Source: Deltaproteobacteria bacterium | Lineage (GTDB): Bacteria > Desulfobacterota > Desulfobacteria > Desulfobacterales > B30-G6 | Length of the DNA: 37,038 nucleotides | Direction: 5' to 3' | Assembly: GCA_024639645.1 (NCBI GenBank) | Contig: JAHEIB010000009.1 | Location: 1-37,038 of the forward strand | Shown: in pieces, positions 2,500 through 32,846 of the stretch | Layout: each line of letters begins with the position of its first letter | How positions within the stretch are numbered: position 1 is the first letter of the stretch | Translations under genes and position numbers: made by a program | The notes under the pieces: model-generated | Told to the model about the DNA's origin: nothing | Seen by the model: the letters and a program-made list of their open reading frames with translations, nothing else | The model's database searches: none

Positions 2500-2765
2500 G
2501 TTGACTCCCTATGTGTGGGAACCGCCTGTTGAATTGCAGTTGTAAGCCTTAAGCTATTAGCTATAAGCCAGATTAAGGATTACCGCTTACAGCGCATTGC
2601 TCCCATAAACAATATGCCAACTGGTAACCCAGTACAAGACCCATTTCAACATACATATTGCAAAGTTCTGATGAATGCCTATGTTGAAGACTGATTTTTT
2701 CCTGGGAAACCGGATTAAAAACCTTTATAACCAGACTATTCCGAATACTGTAAACGGACAAAAAC

Positions 2766-4154
2766 ATGAACCCTGCAAAACCCGCAGTATCCCCATTTGC
2801 TTTAAACAATGTCCGCATGTTCATTGCCTTCAGGGTCTTTTTCAATGCCCGGTTCTACTACCCGGTGTTCACGATTCTTTTTCTCGACTTCGGTCTCACC
2901 ATTTCCCAGTTTGCCATCCTGAATGCCGTCTGGGCCGGAGCCATCGTCCTGATGGAAGTGCCGTCCGGCGCCCTGGCAGATATCTGGGGGCGCCGGAACA
3001 TGCTCGTTTTTTCCAGCCTGCTGATGATTGTGGAATTGTTGCTTCTGTGTGTCGTTCCTCTGGGAAACCCGACCCTGTTGTTTGCCATTTTTCTGGTCAA
3101 TCGTGTTCTGAGCGGCACTGCCGAAGCCGCTGCCAGCGGCGCCGATGAGGCCATTGCTTTTGATTCATTAAAGGAGGCAGGGCTGGCTGGAGAATGGAGC
3201 AAGGTTCTGGCCATGCAAATGCGTATGCGCGCTTTCGGGCGCATTTTTGCCATGGCAGTGGGTGCGGCTGTCTATGACCCGGTATTCATGCAGCGTCTAA
3301 TGGACTGGTTGGGATGGCAGGTCTTCCTGACACAGGATGTCACCATCCGATTCCCCATTTATCTGACCCTTATTATGGCCCTGCTGACCTTTTATTCGAC
3401 ATTTCGCATGACAGACTCGCAATCGTTTATGGTGAACGACGAGTGTAGTGCCCTGGAAACCTGCGGTCTCACCATCAGGGAAATTTTCTTGCAGACACTG
3501 GGGGCCGGCAAATGGATACTACAGACCCCCTTTGCCATGGTCATCATTGCCGCAGGGTTCCTTTTTGACAGCGTCATCCGCATGGCAGGCACACTCGCCA
3601 GTCAGTATTACCGGTTGATTGAAATACCCGAAGCCCTGTTCGGTATCATTGGTTCCGGCATGGCCATTCTGGGTATTGTCACACCCCGCATCTGCATGAA
3701 AATGGTCACGAAACACACGCCCAGGTTCAACCTGCTGGTGGTCAGCACCACCACCATTGTCGGTCTTTACGGCATGACTGTTTTCAAACCGCTCTACGGG
3801 TTGATTCCAATCGTTGTCCTTTACAGCGGTGGTTACATGATCGGATTTTTTGTTAGTCACTACCTGAATCACATTACGGAATCGCATCAGCGTGCCACGG
3901 TTTTAAGTTTCAAGGGGCTTTTCATGAATCTCTTTTACGGTATGATCGGCATGCTCTACGCATTCCTCATCACCATGCTGAGACCCGGAATTTCGGAAAA
4001 ACACCCCCATCTGGCACCCGAACTCCTCGAAAACCTGGTCTTTATAAAATCCTTTCAATGGTTTCCCTGGACATTTATCTTCGGGCTGCTCATTTTTCTG
4101 GCTTTTGCCAACTATAAACTGGGATCCTCTGGGGATGGAGAGCGAATTCATTGA
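2766..4154 (+). CDS. MFS transporter
   Basis: 462 aa polytopic protein; MFS loop 2-3 type motif (MEVPSGALADIWGRRNMLVFSSLL). Confidence 0.85.
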   Translation: MNPAKPAVSPFALNNVRMFIAFRVFFNARFYYPVFTILFLDFGLTISQFAILNAVWAGAIVLMEVPSGALADIWGRRNMLVFSSLLMIVELLLLCVVPLGNPTLLFAIFLVNRVLSGTAEAAASGADEAIAFDSLKEAGLAGEWSKVLAMQMRMRAFGRIFAMAVGAAVYDPVFMQRLMDWLGWQVFLTQDVTIRFPIYLTLIMALLTFYSTFRMTDSQSFMVNDECSALETCGLTIREIFLQTLGAGKWILQTPFAMVIIAAGFLFDSVIRMAGTLASQYYRLIEIPEALFGIIGSGMAILGIVTPRICMKMVTKHTPRFNLLVVSTTTIVGLYGMTVFKPLYGLIPIVVLYSGGYMIGFFVSHYLNHITESHQRATVLSFKGLFMNLFYGMIGMLYAFLITMLRPGISEKHPHLAPELLENLVFIKSFQWFPWTFIFGLLIFLAFANYKLGSSGDGERIH

Positions 4155-21310: not shown

Positions 21311-21345
21311 CCCACCATCGTCATTTTTATTAATACCTAACAGAG

Positions 21346-21426
21346 TTAGGGACGGGTATTCATATATTACTTTCTCTAAAAACCAGTAGTAAAAAATCAT
21401 AGTAATATATGAATACCCGTCCCTAA
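21346..21426. repeat. Perfect 26-bp inverted repeat, REPIN/MITE-like
   Basis: TTAGGGACGGGTATTCATATATTACT (21346-21371) and its exact reverse complement (21401-21426), 29-nt spacer. Confidence 0.8.
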
Positions 21427-21439
21427 TTCTTAAAAGAGA

Positions 21440-23393: not shown

Positions 23394-24614
23394 TTAGTTG
23401 ATCCAACGTGGCACCTTGAAACTTGAACCGGGATACGCTGTCAAAGGCGGATCCGTAAAAATCGGCTGCAATTCCCCGTTTTGTACCTGATAATGAACGA
23501 CCGGCGCCCCTTTCTGGGCACGCAGCACGTTGTCTTTATCCCACTTGATCAGACCCAGCTCTCCCACGTAGCCATTTTCCTGGATATACTTGTTGACCGC
23601 TTTGAAATCATAGGCATCGCCTACCTTGACAACCGCATTGGCCCATGCCTTGACAGCCGTATAGGCAATCCAGGCACCCGCCGGTACCTGATGCTTATAA
23701 AGACTTACGAATTTGTCTACCCAGGCTTGCCCGGCAGCATTGGGTGCCTTGGGTCCCGGAAGTCCGCTGGGCATCTCGCCCACGATGCCGTCGGCCGAAT
23801 CACCCAACGCGTCCACCACTTCACGTGGGGTAATACCCCATCCGAGGCTAATGATGGCGTTGGTGGGTTTTTTCAGAAACTGCTGAATGAAGGTAATATT
23901 CTCCTGTCCGCTGGGTATTTCCATATGGATGAGGGCCGGTTTGATGCGTCGGATTTGTGACAGAATAACACCCCACTCGTTGGTACCGTAGGGCACGGTT
24001 TCCCGTTTTGAAATCTTCCAGCCTTTTTCCTTGAAGCTTTTCTCCAGGGTATCACCAACTTCAAGGCCCCAAGAATCATCCGTATTGATGATCACGACTT
24101 TATTGTTGGGATATTTGTAGGGCAATCCCATGAGCGCACGGAACATGCTCTTGGCCTGTTCGACGCCAACGTCGGTCGTTTGATAGATGTTATAGTATTT
24201 GGCCGGATCTTCTCTAAAGACGTCCACGGCCGCCTGGGAGCCGTCATCTGCAAAAAACGGCGCATCGTATTTCCCATAGGAGCGAACATCCTGACCCCAA
24301 CCGGCCCAGCCGGCATGCACCGAAGCCACATTTTTCTGGCCACAAAGGTAATCAGCTGCCTGCATGACCACCTCCGGTTCAAATCCTTTTGAGTCAAAAC
24401 GGATTATTTCCAGTTGTTTCCCCAGGAGCCCCCCGGATTCGTTGATCTCGTCAATAGCCATTTTGATGCCCTTGAAATAATCCGCGCCGGAGCCAGCAGC
24501 CCAGCCGGTCATCGGAATGGGTACTCCGACTGGAATGGTGTTCGCTGCCATGACGGCTGGGACCCAAAATAAACAAATCACGACAAGCAAGGTAAATAGT
24601 TTGATTCTTTTCAT
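23394..24614 (-). CDS. livK: Branched-chain amino-acid-type ABC transporter, periplasmic binding protein
   Basis: Signal peptide, then NTIPVGVPIPMTGWAAGSGADYFKGIKMAIDEINESGGLLGKQLEIIRFDSK. Confidence 0.92.
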   Translation of the reverse strand: MKRIKLFTLLVVICLFWVPAVMAANTIPVGVPIPMTGWAAGSGADYFKGIKMAIDEINESGGLLGKQLEIIRFDSKGFEPEVVMQAADYLCGQKNVASVHAGWAGWGQDVRSYGKYDAPFFADDGSQAAVDVFREDPAKYYNIYQTTDVGVEQAKSMFRALMGLPYKYPNNKVVIINTDDSWGLEVGDTLEKSFKEKGWKISKRETVPYGTNEWGVILSQIRRIKPALIHMEIPSGQENITFIQQFLKKPTNAIISLGWGITPREVVDALGDSADGIVGEMPSGLPGPKAPNAAGQAWVDKFVSLYKHQVPAGAWIAYTAVKAWANAVVKVGDAYDFKAVNKYIQENGYVGELGLIKWDKDNVLRAQKGAPVVHYQVQNGELQPIFTDPPLTAYPGSSFKVPRWIN

Positions 24615-24779
24615 AGTGCGCCTCCCTTTGTGTTAAAAGTAACCCTAATTACAATCTTTTGTTCATATTCTGAACATCTTAGCCCAGACACTTACCAAAG
24701 AGTGGTGGATATCATTTACAGTCACATGGCAGGATATCCGTTGAACCTCATTGAGGCTATTTTTTGGCTCCCGCGGCTA

Positions 24780-25745
24780 TTAACCGCTTGGTGCGCGGTC
24801 TGACGCGCGTTTTAAAAAGAAACCCATGACCCCGTTTGGCAGGGCCAGTACGAGTATCACCACCAAAGCCCCCATGGTCACGGCTCGATAGGCGCCTAGT
24901 GGGGCCATCAATTCGCTTCCGGCAACCACCAAAAAGGCGCCAATTATTGAACCGGGGTAATGGCCTAGACCACCCACCAGCATCATGACCATCAAGATGC
25001 TGAATAGATCCAGATCCAGCATGCGGAAAGAAAGTACCCCATAGAAATGACCGTAATACGCCCCGATAATACCTGTGAGAAATGATGTCAATGCAAAGAC
25101 CATCAGCTTGTATTTAAAAGCACTGATCCCCAAACTCATGGCAAAATCCTGTGAATCCTTGAGTGCCAGAAAGGCGACGCCCCAGTATGACTTGATTACA
25201 AACATAATAACCAATGCGCAGGCCAAGGACACCAGCAGGGTCAAATAAAACGTGGGAACAATATTGGCGGAACTGAACGAATAGCCGAAAATATTGATTG
25301 GCGGGATGGTCAGCAGGCCCACGGAACCGCCAGATCCCAACGCGATGCCGATCTCACCGCGCAGGGTTGGCTGCAAGGCCATATGCACCCCAAAGGTTAC
25401 CAGGGCCACATAAGGGCCTGCCAGCCGGAGACAGGGCAGCCCCACCAGTACCCCCATGCCCGCCGTAAACAAACCAGCGATAAGGATGGATAGCACCGGT
25501 GTCACATGGTGCTCAATGGCCAGGATGCCGGAGCAATAGGCACCCATGACGAAGAATGCCACCTGCCCGAATGAAAAAATGCCGGCAAATCCCATCATGA
25601 CATCCCAGCATGAGGCCACGACAGCCCAGATGAGACACATAATCAGGATGTTCATTAAAAACCGAATGTCTCCCACCAAAAGGGGTAGCAAAGCCATGAT
25701 CCCGTAAGCAACCCCGATAATTATTGCCATGTGTTTTAAGCGCAT
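24780..25745 (-). CDS. livM: Branched-chain amino-acid ABC transporter permease (LivM family)
   Basis: Polytopic; GFAGIFSFGQVAFFVMGAYCSGIL; MVGGLGHYPGSIIGAF. Confidence 0.93.
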   Translation of the reverse strand: MRLKHMAIIIGVAYGIMALLPLLVGDIRFLMNILIMCLIWAVVASCWDVMMGFAGIFSFGQVAFFVMGAYCSGILAIEHHVTPVLSILIAGLFTAGMGVLVGLPCLRLAGPYVALVTFGVHMALQPTLRGEIGIALGSGGSVGLLTIPPINIFGYSFSSANIVPTFYLTLLVSLACALVIMFVIKSYWGVAFLALKDSQDFAMSLGISAFKYKLMVFALTSFLTGIIGAYYGHFYGVLSFRMLDLDLFSILMVMMLVGGLGHYPGSIIGAFLVVAGSELMAPLGAYRAVTMGALVVILVLALPNGVMGFFLKRASDRAPSG

Positions 25746-25748
25746 GTC

Positions 25749-26651
25749 TTAATCGCCTTTTCCCATTAAGCCTTGCGGTCGTATGACCAATGTGGCCAAC
25801 AACAGAATAAAGAGGGCAATGATACTGTAACTCATGCCAAACAGCCAGCCCACAAAAGCTTCCAGAAGTCCGATAATAAATGCTGCATAAAGCCCGCCAC
25901 GGATGGATCCCATGCCACCGAATGCGGTAACCACCCAGGCCTTGACCATGATGGTTCCGCCGGACATAGGATTGATGAACCATTTCTGGCTCAACAGGAT
26001 ACCGCCAAAGCCGACCATGACGGTTGATATGGCAAAGGTGGAGGCAAAGATACGTTCTTTGGGAATACCAACAATTTTTGCTCCTATGGGGTTCTGCGCC
26101 ACGGCTTTAACAGCCATACCAATGCGGGTGTTGTTGAGCATCCATCCAAAAACCATGATACCGCCAATGGACATCACAAAAATCAGGATGTCCTGGTAGG
26201 AAAACACCAACTGACCCACCTCCAGGGTTCCCTCCAAAATAGGGGGCAGCGATTTCATGCGAACCCCAAAGACGACAGTATATAGGCTTGTCAGAAACAG
26301 TGCCAGGCCCAGTGTCAGCATCATGACCTTGTTTTCCCAGTCCGCACGCTTTCGCAGAGGCGCCACCATGAGTTTTTCCAATGCGTACCCGACCAAAAAC
26401 ATGAGTGGCATCACCACAATTAGAACCGTTACATAACCACCAAACTGAAAGCCGATCCCAAACATCAGTATCCAGGCAAAGTAACCGCCCATATTGAAAA
26501 AGTCACCATATGCGAAATTAAATGCCTTGGTGACGCCATATACCAGGGTCATACCCACGGCCATCAAGGCATACACGGATCCGGTGGACAAGCCGGCAAT
26601 GAGCACATCGGTAATTTCGTAGAGCAATAAAATGGTATCTTCGCTAAACAT
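25749..26651 (-). CDS. livH: Branched-chain amino-acid ABC transporter permease (LivH family)
   Basis: GLSTGSVYALMAVGMTLVYGVTKAFNFAYGDFFNMGGYFAW; AFGGMGSIRGGLYAAFIIGLLEAF. Confidence 0.93.
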   Translation of the reverse strand: MFSEDTILLLYEITDVLIAGLSTGSVYALMAVGMTLVYGVTKAFNFAYGDFFNMGGYFAWILMFGIGFQFGGYVTVLIVVMPLMFLVGYALEKLMVAPLRKRADWENKVMMLTLGLALFLTSLYTVVFGVRMKSLPPILEGTLEVGQLVFSYQDILIFVMSIGGIMVFGWMLNNTRIGMAVKAVAQNPIGAKIVGIPKERIFASTFAISTVMVGFGGILLSQKWFINPMSGGTIMVKAWVVTAFGGMGSIRGGLYAAFIIGLLEAFVGWLFGMSYSIIALFILLLATLVIRPQGLMGKGD

Positions 26652-26732
26652 ACACTCTCACTTTTATTATCAGGCTGAACCAATTACAAAACCAAGAAAA
26701 AAATATCACGTTCACAATCCTCGAGCTCTTGT

Positions 26733-26833
26733 ATGCTGGGAAGCTAGGATGTCCGGAAGCTGGGATGCTGCGGTCTGCTGATAGCTATTAGCTACCCTCG
26801 AAACCTTGTATCACCCTCTGACCCTTGGACCCT
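26733..26833. repeat. Short-period degenerate tandem tracts between livH and livF
   Basis: GCTGGGA/AAGCT units, AGCTATTAGCTA, then ACCCTCTG-ACCCTTGG-ACCCTCAT with ACCCT at 26813, 26821, 26829 (8-bp period). Confidence 0.5.
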
Positions 26834-26871
26834 CATTTTTGATCAACTCATTAGAGATGATCAAAAAATGA

Positions 26872-27585
26872 CTACATGCCCAAGAAAATTTCCCTTAGAT
26901 GCTCATTACTCAGGGCTTCATCCTTATCGCCTTCAAAGGAAATCCGGCCCTCTTCCATAACATAAACTCGGTCTGCCAGTTCCGCGATCTGGGGAATATT
27001 CTGTTCAACCAACAGAACCGTTTTACCCTGCTCATTTATTTGCCTGATGGTTGAAAAGATTTCATGCCGCAGGCTGGGTTGAAGACCTAGAGAAGGCTCG
27101 TCGATACATAAGAAATCTGCGTTGGACATCAATCCCCTTGCCACAGCCAGCATGCGAGCCTCTCCCCCGCTCATGGTCGAGGCGAACTGTTTCTGACGTT
27201 CGACCAAACGTGGAAAAAGATCGAACACCCATGCCAGGTTTTCTTTCTCATGATCGCGTGCATTTTTGGAATAAGCCCCCAGCTTCAGGTTTTCCAGGAC
27301 TGTCATGTGAGGGAAAAGCTCACGATTTTCAGCAATATATATCAGTCCCAGGTTGACGATATTTTCGGTGGCAATGCCATTGATCTCTTTGCCCTTGTAG
27401 GTAATGACACCTTTGGCATTGTCCACCAGGCCGCAGATGGATTTTAAAAGGGTGCTTTTGCCATGGCCATTGGGGCCCAACATGACAACAACCTCACCCT
27501 GCCCCACAGATACCGAGACATCATGCAGTACATGCGACTCACCGTAAAATACATTCAGATTACTTACGTTTAGCATCAGGTTCAC
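26872..27585 (-). CDS. livF: Branched-chain amino-acid ABC transporter ATP-binding protein (LivF family)
   Basis: Walker A GPNGHGKST, signature TMSGGEARMLAVARGLM, LivF-like length and C-terminus. Confidence 0.93.
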   Translation of the reverse strand: MNLMLNVSNLNVFYGESHVLHDVSVSVGQGEVVVMLGPNGHGKSTLLKSICGLVDNAKGVITYKGKEINGIATENIVNLGLIYIAENRELFPHMTVLENLKLGAYSKNARDHEKENLAWVFDLFPRLVERQKQFASTMSGGEARMLAVARGLMSNADFLCIDEPSLGLQPSLRHEIFSTIRQINEQGKTVLLVEQNIPQIAELADRVYVMEEGRISFEGDKDEALSNEHLREIFLGM

Positions 27586-28279
27586 CCAAATAACATGCGA
27601 TCACCTGGGGATCATTGACAACTTCCAAAGGATCACCCTGGCAAATCTTTGCGCCGGACTCAATGATCAGCAACTCTTCGGTCAACTCGGTCAAGACCTT
27701 CATAAAATGTTCGATAATGATAATGGTGATTTTCAGATCATGATTGATTTTGGCGATCAAATCCATGAGACTTCTAATCTCAGTAGCATTACAGCCGGCC
27801 ATGGGTTCATCCAGCATCAGAATTTTTGGTTTGGTTGCCAGGGCCGCTCCGATCATCAACTTCTTCTTTCCAAGCAGGTTCAACAGCCCGGTATTCTGGG
27901 TGCGCTCATTGTCAAGATCGACAAATTGAATCACGTCATTTACATGGGCTGAGTCAAGGCCACCGGCCGCACCAAAGCGGCTACCCACGGAAATAGCTTT
28001 TTGTACAGTGAGACTGGGAAATGTCTGGGGGATCTGAAATGTGCGTGCGATGCCGGCTTTGGCAATTCGAAACGGCGGCATGCCCGAGATATTCCGACCA
28101 TCGAATTCAATGGTGCCGTTAAAGCTGTAAAAGCCTGTAATCAGATTGTATAATGTGGATTTGCCGGCGCCGTTAGGTCCCGCGATACCGAAGATCTGTC
28201 CTGCTTTAACCTCAAAGCTGAGATCGTTAACCGCTTTGAGCTCCCCGAATTTTTTGGTAACGTGTATTACCCTGAGCAT
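27560..28279 (-). CDS. livG: Branched-chain amino-acid ABC transporter ATP-binding protein (LivG family)
   Basis: GPNGAGKSTLYNLITGFY, ARTFQIPQTFPSLTV, LMLDEPMAGCNATEI; overlaps livF start. Confidence 0.92.
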   Translation of the reverse strand: MLRVIHVTKKFGELKAVNDLSFEVKAGQIFGIAGPNGAGKSTLYNLITGFYSFNGTIEFDGRNISGMPPFRIAKAGIARTFQIPQTFPSLTVQKAISVGSRFGAAGGLDSAHVNDVIQFVDLDNERTQNTGLLNLLGKKKLMIGAALATKPKILMLDEPMAGCNATEIRSLMDLIAKINHDLKITIIIIEHFMKVLTELTEELLIIESGAKICQGDPLEVVNDPQVIACYLGEPDAKRK

Positions 28280-28507: not shown

Positions 28508-29590
28508 TTAGGGTGAAGATGCTTGTTGACGTTTTGCTATCCATTGACGGTATTCTATGGCGTTTGCCGCACGGAGACCGGCCATCTCTAAAATTGGTTT
28601 TATACCCGCCATGCTCCGGTTGGCATTTTCGATATCCAATTCATGGTGGGCCACCCCAGAAAGACCATAATCCGGTGGCACCAGGGAGGTAATAACGTTG
28701 GCGCCTGCGTCCAATCGCATTTTTAAGCCCGCCAAACCATCCACATCCAGGGATGCTGGAATCAACCGATCCGGAAAAGAAAGGCGTAATACCGCGATGA
28801 TAAGACACTCGCGCATGGACGCCTCCTCAGTATGCTCTGCCATGGGTGTCCCGGGCTGTGGCACAAACTTCATGACCCGAACCTGACCCACATCAAGCGC
28901 GCGCATCACCTGGATGGAATGCGCGATGTCTGAGGATGATTCACCCATACCGCTCAAAATTCCCTCTTCAATTAGAAGCCCCAGTTCTCTGGCCTTACGC
29001 TTTTTCTCCAGACGCTTTTCAAAACTTTGCCCTGTTCTTAACCTTTTAAAAAGGGCCGGGTTATGGGTCTCCTGATAACAGGCGTACCAGGTAACGCCGG
29101 CAGCAGCCAGCATGGCCAGCACTTTATCAGGAACAACACCAGGGGATACCATGACGGGCAAGTTCGTCACGGCCTTGATATCTTTGACCAGTTGAACCAG
29201 AGCATTTAATTCCCCGTTTTTCGAATCGTGAAACCGCGGATCTTCTCCCATGGTCAAGTCCATGAGATTGACCCCTTCCTTTGACAGGTACCTGGCTATG
29301 TTTAGAACATCCTGGGTCTTTTTTCGATACCGCTGCGGCCGCTTGTTGGAGCGACGAAAATAGCAGAAGGTGCAGTCGTTCCGGCAGAACGTACTCGTAT
29401 AGGCAAATCCGTAGGTAAATATTTTATTTCCAAAATTTTCTTTGCGAATGTTCCGGGCGGTCTCAAACAGCATCTCCAGGGCATCTTCATTGTCCAGGCT
29501 CAATAATTGGACAGTATCGGAAGTGTTCAATCTGCGTCCATGTTGAACGTCGGATAATAGATTTTTGAGATGGTGTGTCGATAATGTCAT
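28508..29590 (-). CDS. pylB: PylB-family radical SAM protein (methylornithine synthase-like)
   Basis: Radical SAM CRNDCTFC; PylB-like segments FGNKIFTYGFAYTSTFCRNDCTFCYFRRSN, MDLTMGEDP, YQETHNPALFKRLRTGQSFEKR, GLLIEEGILSGMGE, VRVMKFVPQPGTPM, IIAVLRLSFPDRLIPASLDVDGLAGLKMRLDAGANVITSLVPP. Confidence 0.85.
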   Translation of the reverse strand: MTLSTHHLKNLLSDVQHGRRLNTSDTVQLLSLDNEDALEMLFETARNIRKENFGNKIFTYGFAYTSTFCRNDCTFCYFRRSNKRPQRYRKKTQDVLNIARYLSKEGVNLMDLTMGEDPRFHDSKNGELNALVQLVKDIKAVTNLPVMVSPGVVPDKVLAMLAAAGVTWYACYQETHNPALFKRLRTGQSFEKRLEKKRKARELGLLIEEGILSGMGESSSDIAHSIQVMRALDVGQVRVMKFVPQPGTPMAEHTEEASMRECLIIAVLRLSFPDRLIPASLDVDGLAGLKMRLDAGANVITSLVPPDYGLSGVAHHELDIENANRSMAGIKPILEMAGLRAANAIEYRQWIAKRQQASSP

Positions 29591-29655: not shown

Positions 29656-31458
29656 TTACCCCAAGCCCAGATCCCTCGGTTTCTCAGAGCTCGGGATACC
29701 TTCTTCATCCCACCCCCGGAGCTGGTAATAATCCTTGAGCATAAAGGCGAGTTCTTCCTGGGTAAGCTGGCTCTCAGCCCCTTTCAGCTTTTGAAACAAT
29801 CCCGCAGAAAGGGAATCGTCTTGGGGCCGCATGCCCTCTCTGATGTTGAAACGCCGAACCAGATTGGAAATACCGGCAGCCATCTGCTGTAGCCGGGGCT
29901 TGTCTACATCGAGGCCGGTGACCATGCAAATAATATCCTGCAATTGTTCCCACAGGTACATATCCCGATAAAACCTGCAGAAGACCAGTGCATCAAAAAG
30001 GGTCAAGCGATCCTCAAAATCGATAAACATTTTGGCTTTTCCCTGGGTCTGCTCCGGTGAAATCATACCGGACAGTTCCGGCTTGTAAAAGGTGGCCCGC
30101 AAGTGACAGGCACCCCGATCAGAGCTAGCATAGGCAAGACCCATTCCTTTGAGAACACGGGGGTCGTAACCGGCCGGCTCCAGGCCCTTGGCATGTACGG
30201 CAATATCTTCAAGATCCCACACCTTGGCAGCGTGCCGAATGCCGTCGGCCAGAATATCGCCGATCCCTTGCCTGTATGCAATTTTTTTCAGCAGGTCGGC
30301 AATGGCGTCCACATCACCATACGCGATGACCGTGTCAAGCCGGCCCCGTTTTCCGGCCTCCATGGCAAAGGCACAGAGATTGCCGGCGGTAATGGTGTCC
30401 ATCCCCAGACGGTCACAGATATCGTTGAGATAAATGATCTCCTCGATACTGTCCACCATGCACAGCCCGCCAAAGGCATAAATGGTTTCATATTCCGGGC
30501 CTTCAAGACGTAACCCGGAATGCCGTCCCTCTTTAACACGGCTCAACCTGCCACAGGCCATGAAACATTTGAGACAGGCGCTGGGTTTGACTTCGCATTG
30601 ATTATGCAGGGCATCGGCGTTGATTCTCTCCCAATGGTCACAGGTACCCGCAGACCAGTAACGTGTGGGAAAGGCTTTGGCGTTGTTGAGCAGTTTGACC
30701 ATCATGGGAGTGCCCATGCTTTTATAGGCTTTTACACCGGGATTTTCCTTGCTCTCTTTGGAAAGCTCCCGGGAAAAAGACCGCACCTTCTCCGGATCCG
30801 CCAGCTGTCGTTGGCAGTCTCCTTGAAACACTATCCCTTTCAGATGCTTGGCGCCCAACACCGTACCCACACCTGTACGACCAGCAGATCGCCAGTAGTC
30901 ATTTTCAATAACACCAAATTTGACCAGATTTTCAGAGGCCGGTCCAATCACCACGGCACCCGGTCGCCCATAGGTCTCATGGCTCTTCCGGAATCGCTTC
31001 ACTAGAATATCTTCGGTGTCATAGGTGTCCTTACCCCAGATGTCGGCGGCATCATGAAAGGTCACACCTTTGGGATCAATGGACAAAACCGTCGGTACCG
31101 CGCTTTTACCGCAAATGATGATGGCATCGTACCCGGCACTGTCCATGGCCTCGGGTGCTTTGCCCCCCGAATAGGACTCCGAGTATAGCAAGGTCTGGGG
31201 CGACTTCGTGAATACACCGTACCGGCAGCATCCCCAAAGACGACTCCCTGCTACAGGACCGGTTGCAAAAACAATGTGATTGTCCGGAGAAAGTGGGTCA
31301 ACACCCGGCGGGTTATACTTGTAGAGAAGATATGTGCCCAGCCCCTTGCCCCCCAGAAACGTTTCATAAATGGATGCGGGAATGCTGTTATCCTCTATTT
31401 CAAAGGATTGCTTTGTCAAATTCACCTTTAAAATACGATTATAAATACCCTGCATCAT
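29656..31458 (-). CDS. Aldehyde:ferredoxin oxidoreductase (tungsten-type AOR) family protein
   Basis: LGGKGLGTYLLYKYNPPGVDPLSPDN, GCCRYGVFTKSP, GRTGVGTVLGAKHLKGIVFQG, CLKCFMAC cluster motif, GPEYETIYAFGGLC. AGGAGGAAATA RBS before ATGATG at 31458. Confidence 0.93.
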   Translation of the reverse strand: MMQGIYNRILKVNLTKQSFEIEDNSIPASIYETFLGGKGLGTYLLYKYNPPGVDPLSPDNHIVFATGPVAGSRLWGCCRYGVFTKSPQTLLYSESYSGGKAPEAMDSAGYDAIIICGKSAVPTVLSIDPKGVTFHDAADIWGKDTYDTEDILVKRFRKSHETYGRPGAVVIGPASENLVKFGVIENDYWRSAGRTGVGTVLGAKHLKGIVFQGDCQRQLADPEKVRSFSRELSKESKENPGVKAYKSMGTPMMVKLLNNAKAFPTRYWSAGTCDHWERINADALHNQCEVKPSACLKCFMACGRLSRVKEGRHSGLRLEGPEYETIYAFGGLCMVDSIEEIIYLNDICDRLGMDTITAGNLCAFAMEAGKRGRLDTVIAYGDVDAIADLLKKIAYRQGIGDILADGIRHAAKVWDLEDIAVHAKGLEPAGYDPRVLKGMGLAYASSDRGACHLRATFYKPELSGMISPEQTQGKAKMFIDFEDRLTLFDALVFCRFYRDMYLWEQLQDIICMVTGLDVDKPRLQQMAAGISNLVRRFNIREGMRPQDDSLSAGLFQKLKGAESQLTQEELAFMLKDYYQLRGWDEEGIPSSEKPRDLGLG

Positions 31459-31580
31459 TATTTCCTCCTGGTTAGGATGCCGCATCACTACATCGATATG
31501 GCTTGTGACAATCTGGATGGTTCGATTTATATTCGGCTCGATATATACCTGTGTTACCTATTCGACAATTGCTTCGTCAA

Positions 31581-32846
31581 TCAACTCGAGATCTTCTTGA
31601 TACCCTTTTCCATGATATCAAGGCCTTTATTCAGCTGTTCATCGGTGATAACAAAAGGTGCCAAAACACGAATTACGTTTCCATAGCTGCCACAGACCAG
31701 TATGCTCAATCCGTTTTCAAAACAGGTTGCTGACAAGGCCTTGGCCTCTTCAGGAGCGGGTGAACGGTCTGAACCTTTAATGAGCTCGAGCCCCAGCATG
31801 GCGCCCAGACCTCGGACTTCACCGATGATATTGTATTTCTGTTGCCAGGACTTAAAACGGGCCTGCAGTTTATTGCCAAGAGCCACTGACTTTTCAAGCA
31901 TGTTTTCATCTTCAAAAATATCCAGAACGGCCAGGGCCGCTTCACAAGCCAATGGGTTGGCACCATAGGTGCCGCCAAGTCCGCCCGGATGTATGGAATC
32001 CATGATCTCCCGACGACCCACAACAGCGCTCAAAGGCATGCCCGCCGCGAGGCTCTTGGCTACGATAATCAGATCCGGTTCTACGCCCCAGTGTTCGATG
32101 GCAAACATTTTCCCGGTACGCCCCATGCCGGTCTGGATCTCGTCACTGACGAACAAAATCCCGTGCTTTCTGCAGATCTCCACCAGTTTCTGAAAATATC
32201 CATCCGGCGGTGCAATAAACCCGCCTTCTCCCTGGACCGGCTCCGCCACCACGGCAGCTACCGCCTCGGGGTTGACATGTTTGATAAAAAAGTCTTCCAG
32301 TTTCTCCGGACCAACAACATCTCCGAAAGGCATGCGGTATACCTCCGGTGCAAAAGGGCCAAAACCCAATTTATAGGGTTTGACCCTGCTGGTCATGGTC
32401 ATCGTCAGCAGGGTGCGTCCATGGTAACCATTCTCAAACACAATAATCGCCGGCCGCTTTGTATAATAACGGGCGATCTTGACGGCATTCTCCACAGCCT
32501 CGGCCCCACTGTTGATAAAAAGAACCTTTTTGGCAAAATCCCCCGGGGTAATATCACAAAGTCTTTTGGCTAGACGGACCGGTGAACCATACGGGTTCAC
32601 CATGAAACATGTGTGGGTGAATTTTTCCGCCTGGGTCTTGATGGCCGCCACCACCTTGGGATGGCTGTGACCAATGTTCATCACGGCAATCCCGCCTGCA
32701 AAGTCGATATACTCCTTGCCTTCCACATCCTTGATGATGGCACCTCTGGCAGAGGCCACATAGCAGTTTGTACCACTGGCATATCCGTTTGAAATTACCT
32801 CACGTCGCATGGTCTGAAGCGCTTCGTTTGTTACGGAATCTGTCAT
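31581..32846 (-). CDS. gabT: Class III PLP aminotransferase, 4-aminobutyrate aminotransferase-like
   Basis: INSGAEAVENAVKIARYYTKRPAIIVFENGYHGRT, EPVQGEGGFIAPP, SDEIQTGMGRTGKMFAIEHWGVEPDLIIVAKSLAAGMPLSAVVGR. Confidence 0.9.
   Translation of the reverse strand: MTDSVTNEALQTMRREVISNGYASGTNCYVASARGAIIKDVEGKEYIDFAGGIAVMNIGHSHPKVVAAIKTQAEKFTHTCFMVNPYGSPVRLAKRLCDITPGDFAKKVLFINSGAEAVENAVKIARYYTKRPAIIVFENGYHGRTLLTMTMTSRVKPYKLGFGPFAPEVYRMPFGDVVGPEKLEDFFIKHVNPEAVAAVVAEPVQGEGGFIAPPDGYFQKLVEICRKHGILFVSDEIQTGMGRTGKMFAIEHWGVEPDLIIVAKSLAAGMPLSAVVGRREIMDSIHPGGLGGTYGANPLACEAALAVLDIFEDENMLEKSVALGNKLQARFKSWQQKYNIIGEVRGLGAMLGLELIKGSDRSPAPEEAKALSATCFENGLSILVCGSYGNVIRVLAPFVITDEQLNKGLDIMEKGIKKISS

Follow-up and report, generated by a model that had tools for sequence, protein, structure and literature searches.

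A pylB gene lying apart from an otherwise complete pyrrolysine gene cluster in a draft genome of Desulfobacterales

PylB catalyses the first step in the synthesis of pyrrolysine, the 22nd amino acid. In the archaeon Ca. Methanomethylophilus alvus a single pylB is located ∼ 0.7 Mb from the pylTSCD cluster (PMC3941956, PMC9499178), and in Methanohalobium evestigatum and Ca. Sifarchaeia pylTS is split from pylBCD (PMC9499178). Here we describe a pylB from a Deltaproteobacteria bacterium whose assembly (GCA_024639645.1) is a 3.4 Mb draft in 302 contigs, 83.59% complete and with 4.01% contamination. The window analysed is the entire contig C14 (37 038 nucleotides), and the other pyl genes of this genome are found on contig C210 (Table 1). 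We are highly confident that the window gene is the functional pylB of its genome and has become detached from the other pyl genes.

Table 1. Features of the window (contig C14) and Pyl proteins encoded on contig C210.
Feature	Position	Strand	Basis and remarks
LivG-like ABC ATPase	27560..28279	(-)	ORF call, named by the initial annotation and by inspection; homology to G090 liv genes
pylB (radical SAM, 3-methylornithine synthase)	28508..29590	(-)	360 aa, ATG start; TIGR03910, 3t7v likeness, residue mapping
AOR-family tungsten/molybdenum oxidoreductase	29656..31488	(-)	Pfam AFOR_N, AFOR_C; 65 bp upstream of pylB, same strand
Class-III aminotransferase	31581..32846	(-)	Pfam Aminotran_3; upstream of AOR
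PylSc	C210		327 bits, above model cut-off
PylC	C210		387.5 bits, above model cut-off
PylD	C210		225.5 bits, above model cut-off
PylSn	C210		127.8 bits, above model cut-off

The initial annotation recognized the PylB sequence pattern from end to end, and the curated PylB equivalog model TIGR03910 bears this out: the intact ORF scores 460.7 bits (cut-off 348.2) with full-length coverage, residues 5–351 aligning with model positions 2–347 of 347. Its scores against the HydE model TIGR03956 (120.1 bits, cut-off 254.6) and the BioB model TIGR00433 (101.7 bits, cut-off 225) are far below both cut-offs, so these models are matched at superfamily level only. Among solved structures, the best sequence match is Methanosarcina barkeri PylB (3t7v), with 41% identity over 304 aligned residues. 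The CX3CX2C radical SAM motif is kept (C69, C73 and C76, equivalent to C71, C75 and C78 of 3t7v) and its cysteines are invariant across 17 aligned PylB sequences. D111, R238, S280 and D282 align with D112, R235, S277 and D279 of 3t7v, presumed product-contacting residues of the ligand site that are reportedly described by Quitterer et al. (2012). The comparison with the PylB structure that had been proposed for the active site thus finds the cysteines and all four of these residues conserved. An AlphaFold2 model of the protein (mean pLDDT 86) ranks 3t7v first in fold comparison (TM-score 0.87/0.93, E 1.1e-31), with HydE clearly behind (E 1.7e-24). A HydE- or BioB-like function was considered and is rejected in view of the model scores together with the predicted fold.

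Downstream of pylB, past a 228-bp gap, is a livG-F-H-M-K branched-chain amino-acid transporter set (23394–28279) of which livG is the first gene. The flanks are therefore those initially described, livG on one side and the AOR gene on the other. The reported lack of a tRNA-Pyl or a further pyl ORF nearby also holds within the window, where a tRNA search and a search for pyl-related RNA families returned nothing and none of the remaining ORFs is recognizable as a pyl gene. The borders of pylB carry no repeats of note that would signal a mobile element. Elsewhere in the window, a long and nearly perfect inverted repeat occupies intergenic positions 21342–21430 (arms with TTAGGGACGGGTATTC); it is REP-like by appearance, and the part of C210 that was examined contains no match to it. 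An ORF at 2505–3506 of the C210 locus (L035) resembles, by eye, a REP-associated transposase.

The initial description of a gene without pylT, pylS, pylC or pylD is correct for the window but not for the genome, since all of them are encoded on C210. This contig carries tRNA-Pyl(CUA)-pylSc-pylC-pylD-pylSn on one strand, with the CUA anticodon called by ARAGORN, and is complete except for pylB. The gap between pylSc and pylC, the usual place of the missing gene, measures ∼ 110 bp. When the entire assembly was searched with the PylB model, the window gene was the sole match. A standard linked operon, with pylB adjoining pylS or pylC, is present neither in the window nor on C210.

Methyltransferase genes with amber codons are present as well. 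One in-frame UAG each is found in five of the 26 MTTB-family places of the assembly and in all six MtbB places; two mtbB pieces at contig ends may be a single gene, so that the amber total is ten or eleven. The UAG codons occupy one common alignment column in mttB and one in mtbB, and every amber site, that of the mttB on C210 included, matches Rfam PYLIS_3 or PYLIS_2. Judged by these sequences, the pyrrolysine code is in use in the host genome. The other MTTB-family places, which are the majority, have no amber codon and probably encode quaternary-amine methyltransferases, a large complement alongside the amber-containing genes. The only MtmB-family place of the assembly (L181; G000:C165:4221-5567, minus strand) is also without an amber codon; in an alignment with MtmB1 (1l2q), valine occupies its pyrrolysine column. 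Its product seems to be an MtmB relative that lacks pyrrolysine, as the pyrrolysine-free MttB enzymes do.

All components that the initial annotation suggested seeking in the genome (PylS, PylC, PylD, tRNA-Pyl and amber methyltransferases) thus occur elsewhere in the assembly. It had offered two options, namely that the pyl pathway is dispersed or that a PylB homologue has been recruited to a different reaction. The data uphold the first, with pylT, pylSc, pylC, pylD, pylSn and the amber methyltransferases encoded at other places, whereas the second is without support. The annotation had itself held that such a set elsewhere would reduce the gene to a displaced pylB, and this is the situation found.

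The window gene is an ordinary PylB, a relocated part of the pathway and not a new enzyme. It is predicted to be expressed and, as a member of this family, to follow established PylB chemistry, in which a [4Fe-4S] cluster and SAM would serve to convert lysine to 3-methylornithine. PylC and PylD from C210 would join 3-methylornithine to a second lysine and oxidize the product to pyrrolysine, and PylSc and PylSn would charge tRNA-Pyl(CUA), allowing UAG to be read in mttB and mtbB, the genes for methylamine methyltransferases. Because the product of PylB is diffusible, linkage of pylB to the other pyl genes would not be needed.

Two related loci may indicate how pylB parted from its cluster. In genome G090 a single strand carries liv, aminotransferase, mtbB(UAG), mtbC, AOR, tRNA-Pyl, pylSc, pylB, pylC, pylD and pylSn (by inspection, the stop at the amber site breaks the mtbB ORF), and in G126 the order is AOR-tRNA-Pyl-pylSc-pylB-pylC-pylD-pylSn. 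The window reads aminotransferase-AOR-pylB-liv. An AOR gene whose product is 65–67% identical to that of the window (65% in G090) immediately precedes the complete pyl operon in both genomes; the G090 class-III aminotransferase, upstream of the operon, is 75% identical to its window counterpart, and liv genes related to those of the window flank the G090 pyl locus. The window order may be a remnant of a G090-like pyl locus. The most economical route would be one in which a full pyl operon once stood behind the AOR gene, as in G090 and G126, and all of it except pylB was lost or moved; alternatively, pylB could have been inserted behind the AOR gene. We put forward only tentatively, as a possibility that we would not favour, that the cassette was dismantled in place, leaving pylB as the last remnant behind the aminotransferase and AOR genes and now under their control, while pylT-Sc-C-D-Sn moved or survives as a second copy. 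A remnant locus is not proven, since paired aminotransferase and AOR genes are also common where pyl genes are absent (G007, G139, G009), the window AOR groups with that of G081 (support 86) and is not the sister of the G090 and G126 AORs, and the window PylB is poorly resolved in its tree.

In phylogenetic trees PylB, PylC, PylSc and PylD of the host have common near neighbours (L066, L062, L172/L173 and kin), as expected of one cassette. For the window PylB, the exact sister has poor support (an open fork, SH-aLRT 84) and the end branch is long (1.01 versus a median of 0.25). PylC, PylSc and PylD of the host are likewise on long branches, so we attribute the length to an isolated lineage. 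An origin of pylB by transfer from distantly related organisms is unsupported; the protein sits among PylB of Desulfobacterota and Aminicenantes.

We consider it very unlikely that C14 and its pylB were misbinned from another organism in the sample and that the assembly lacks the host's own pylB. With 302 contigs and a contamination estimate of 4.01%, C14 could be misbinned, and a second, linked pylB could be in the missing part of the incomplete draft. However, the cluster on C210 runs from pylT to pylSn without interruption and without pylB, so that a missing pylB of the host would also be displaced, and the Pyl proteins of C210 share their tree neighbours with PylB. C14 and C210 are also alike in composition (tetranucleotide distance 0.067), which is weak evidence and would not by itself decide against misbinning, because a stretch from another genome, G068, is equally close. 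Slightly less probable again is that a PylB homologue was recruited for a different reaction, perhaps together with the aminotransferase and AOR whose genes are closely spaced with it on the same strand, pyrrolysine being made through another, unseen pylB: the long end branch would fit such a change, but the ORF scores 112 bits above the PylB cut-off, every checked residue mapped from 3t7v is kept, the assembly holds no second PylB although the pathway needs one, and the branches of the host PylC, PylSc and PylD are long too.

The displaced but functional pylB that we favour has parallels among relatives. In a set of 146 genomes (the host and 145 relatives) PylB is present in 18 others, and PylSc and/or PylC lies within ∼ 1.5 kb on either side of it in 17 of these, the exception being G095. 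The relatives searched included no other genome that was seen to belong to the genus of the host. A scan with one genome per species supplied 80 PylB loci. Another pyl gene flanks PylB at 73 of them; the remaining seven (L070, L076, L109, L118, L125, L130 and L132), some with flanks truncated at contig ends, are from Desulfobacterota. In all seven genomes PylSc is encoded at another place, and five of the seven (L070, L076, L118, L130 and L132) have a single PylB. The unlinked PylB are spread over different clades, beside linked relatives, which argues that separation happened several times. Displacement of pylB is thus real but not unusual.

The single unlinked PylB of Desulfococcaceae bacterium HSG9 (L130, G095:C6) groups with PylB of Bacillota, which suggests that this pylB was acquired separately. 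Two or three PylB genes per genome are found in Desulfospira joergensenii (L077/L084), where the copies belong to different clades and have different pyl neighbours, and in Desulfobacteraceae Madre2 (L125/L133). The pyl gene order is Sn-Sc-C-D-B in Desulfacinum infernum (L141) and Sn-B-C-D-Sc in Desulfobacula and Desulfotignum loci (e.g. L072 and L116).

The window gene drops out as a candidate for novel radical SAM chemistry, and a lack of pyl neighbours in a window does not argue that a PylB has a new function. Instead it provides a clear bacterial case, with at least five more, of a pylB apart from pylTSCD; these cases supply data on operon breakup and show that the pyl genes need not be linked.

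The bacterial operon pylT-pylSc-pylB-pylC-pylD-pylSn of G001, G002, G068 and G090 has the same genes, including a PylRS split into Sn and Sc, and its order matches that of the genes remaining on C210. The PylB proteins of these four genomes are 52–56% identical to that of the window, but in the host pylB follows an AOR gene on a separate contig and does not stand between pylSc and pylC. Like the host, Ca. Methanomethylophilus alvus has a pylTSCD cluster without pylB; it differs in being an archaeon, in having no pylSn and, as far as known, in the neighbours of its pylB. Methanohalobium evestigatum and Ca. Sifarchaeia share with the host pyl genes at two genomic places, but their pylB stays with pylCD. 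The five Desulfobacterota loci with a single PylB, like that of the host, have no pyl flanks, and PylSc is on another contig. Their neighbours are different (e.g. an amber mttB in L076) and their PylB belong to other clades, so the separations are independent.
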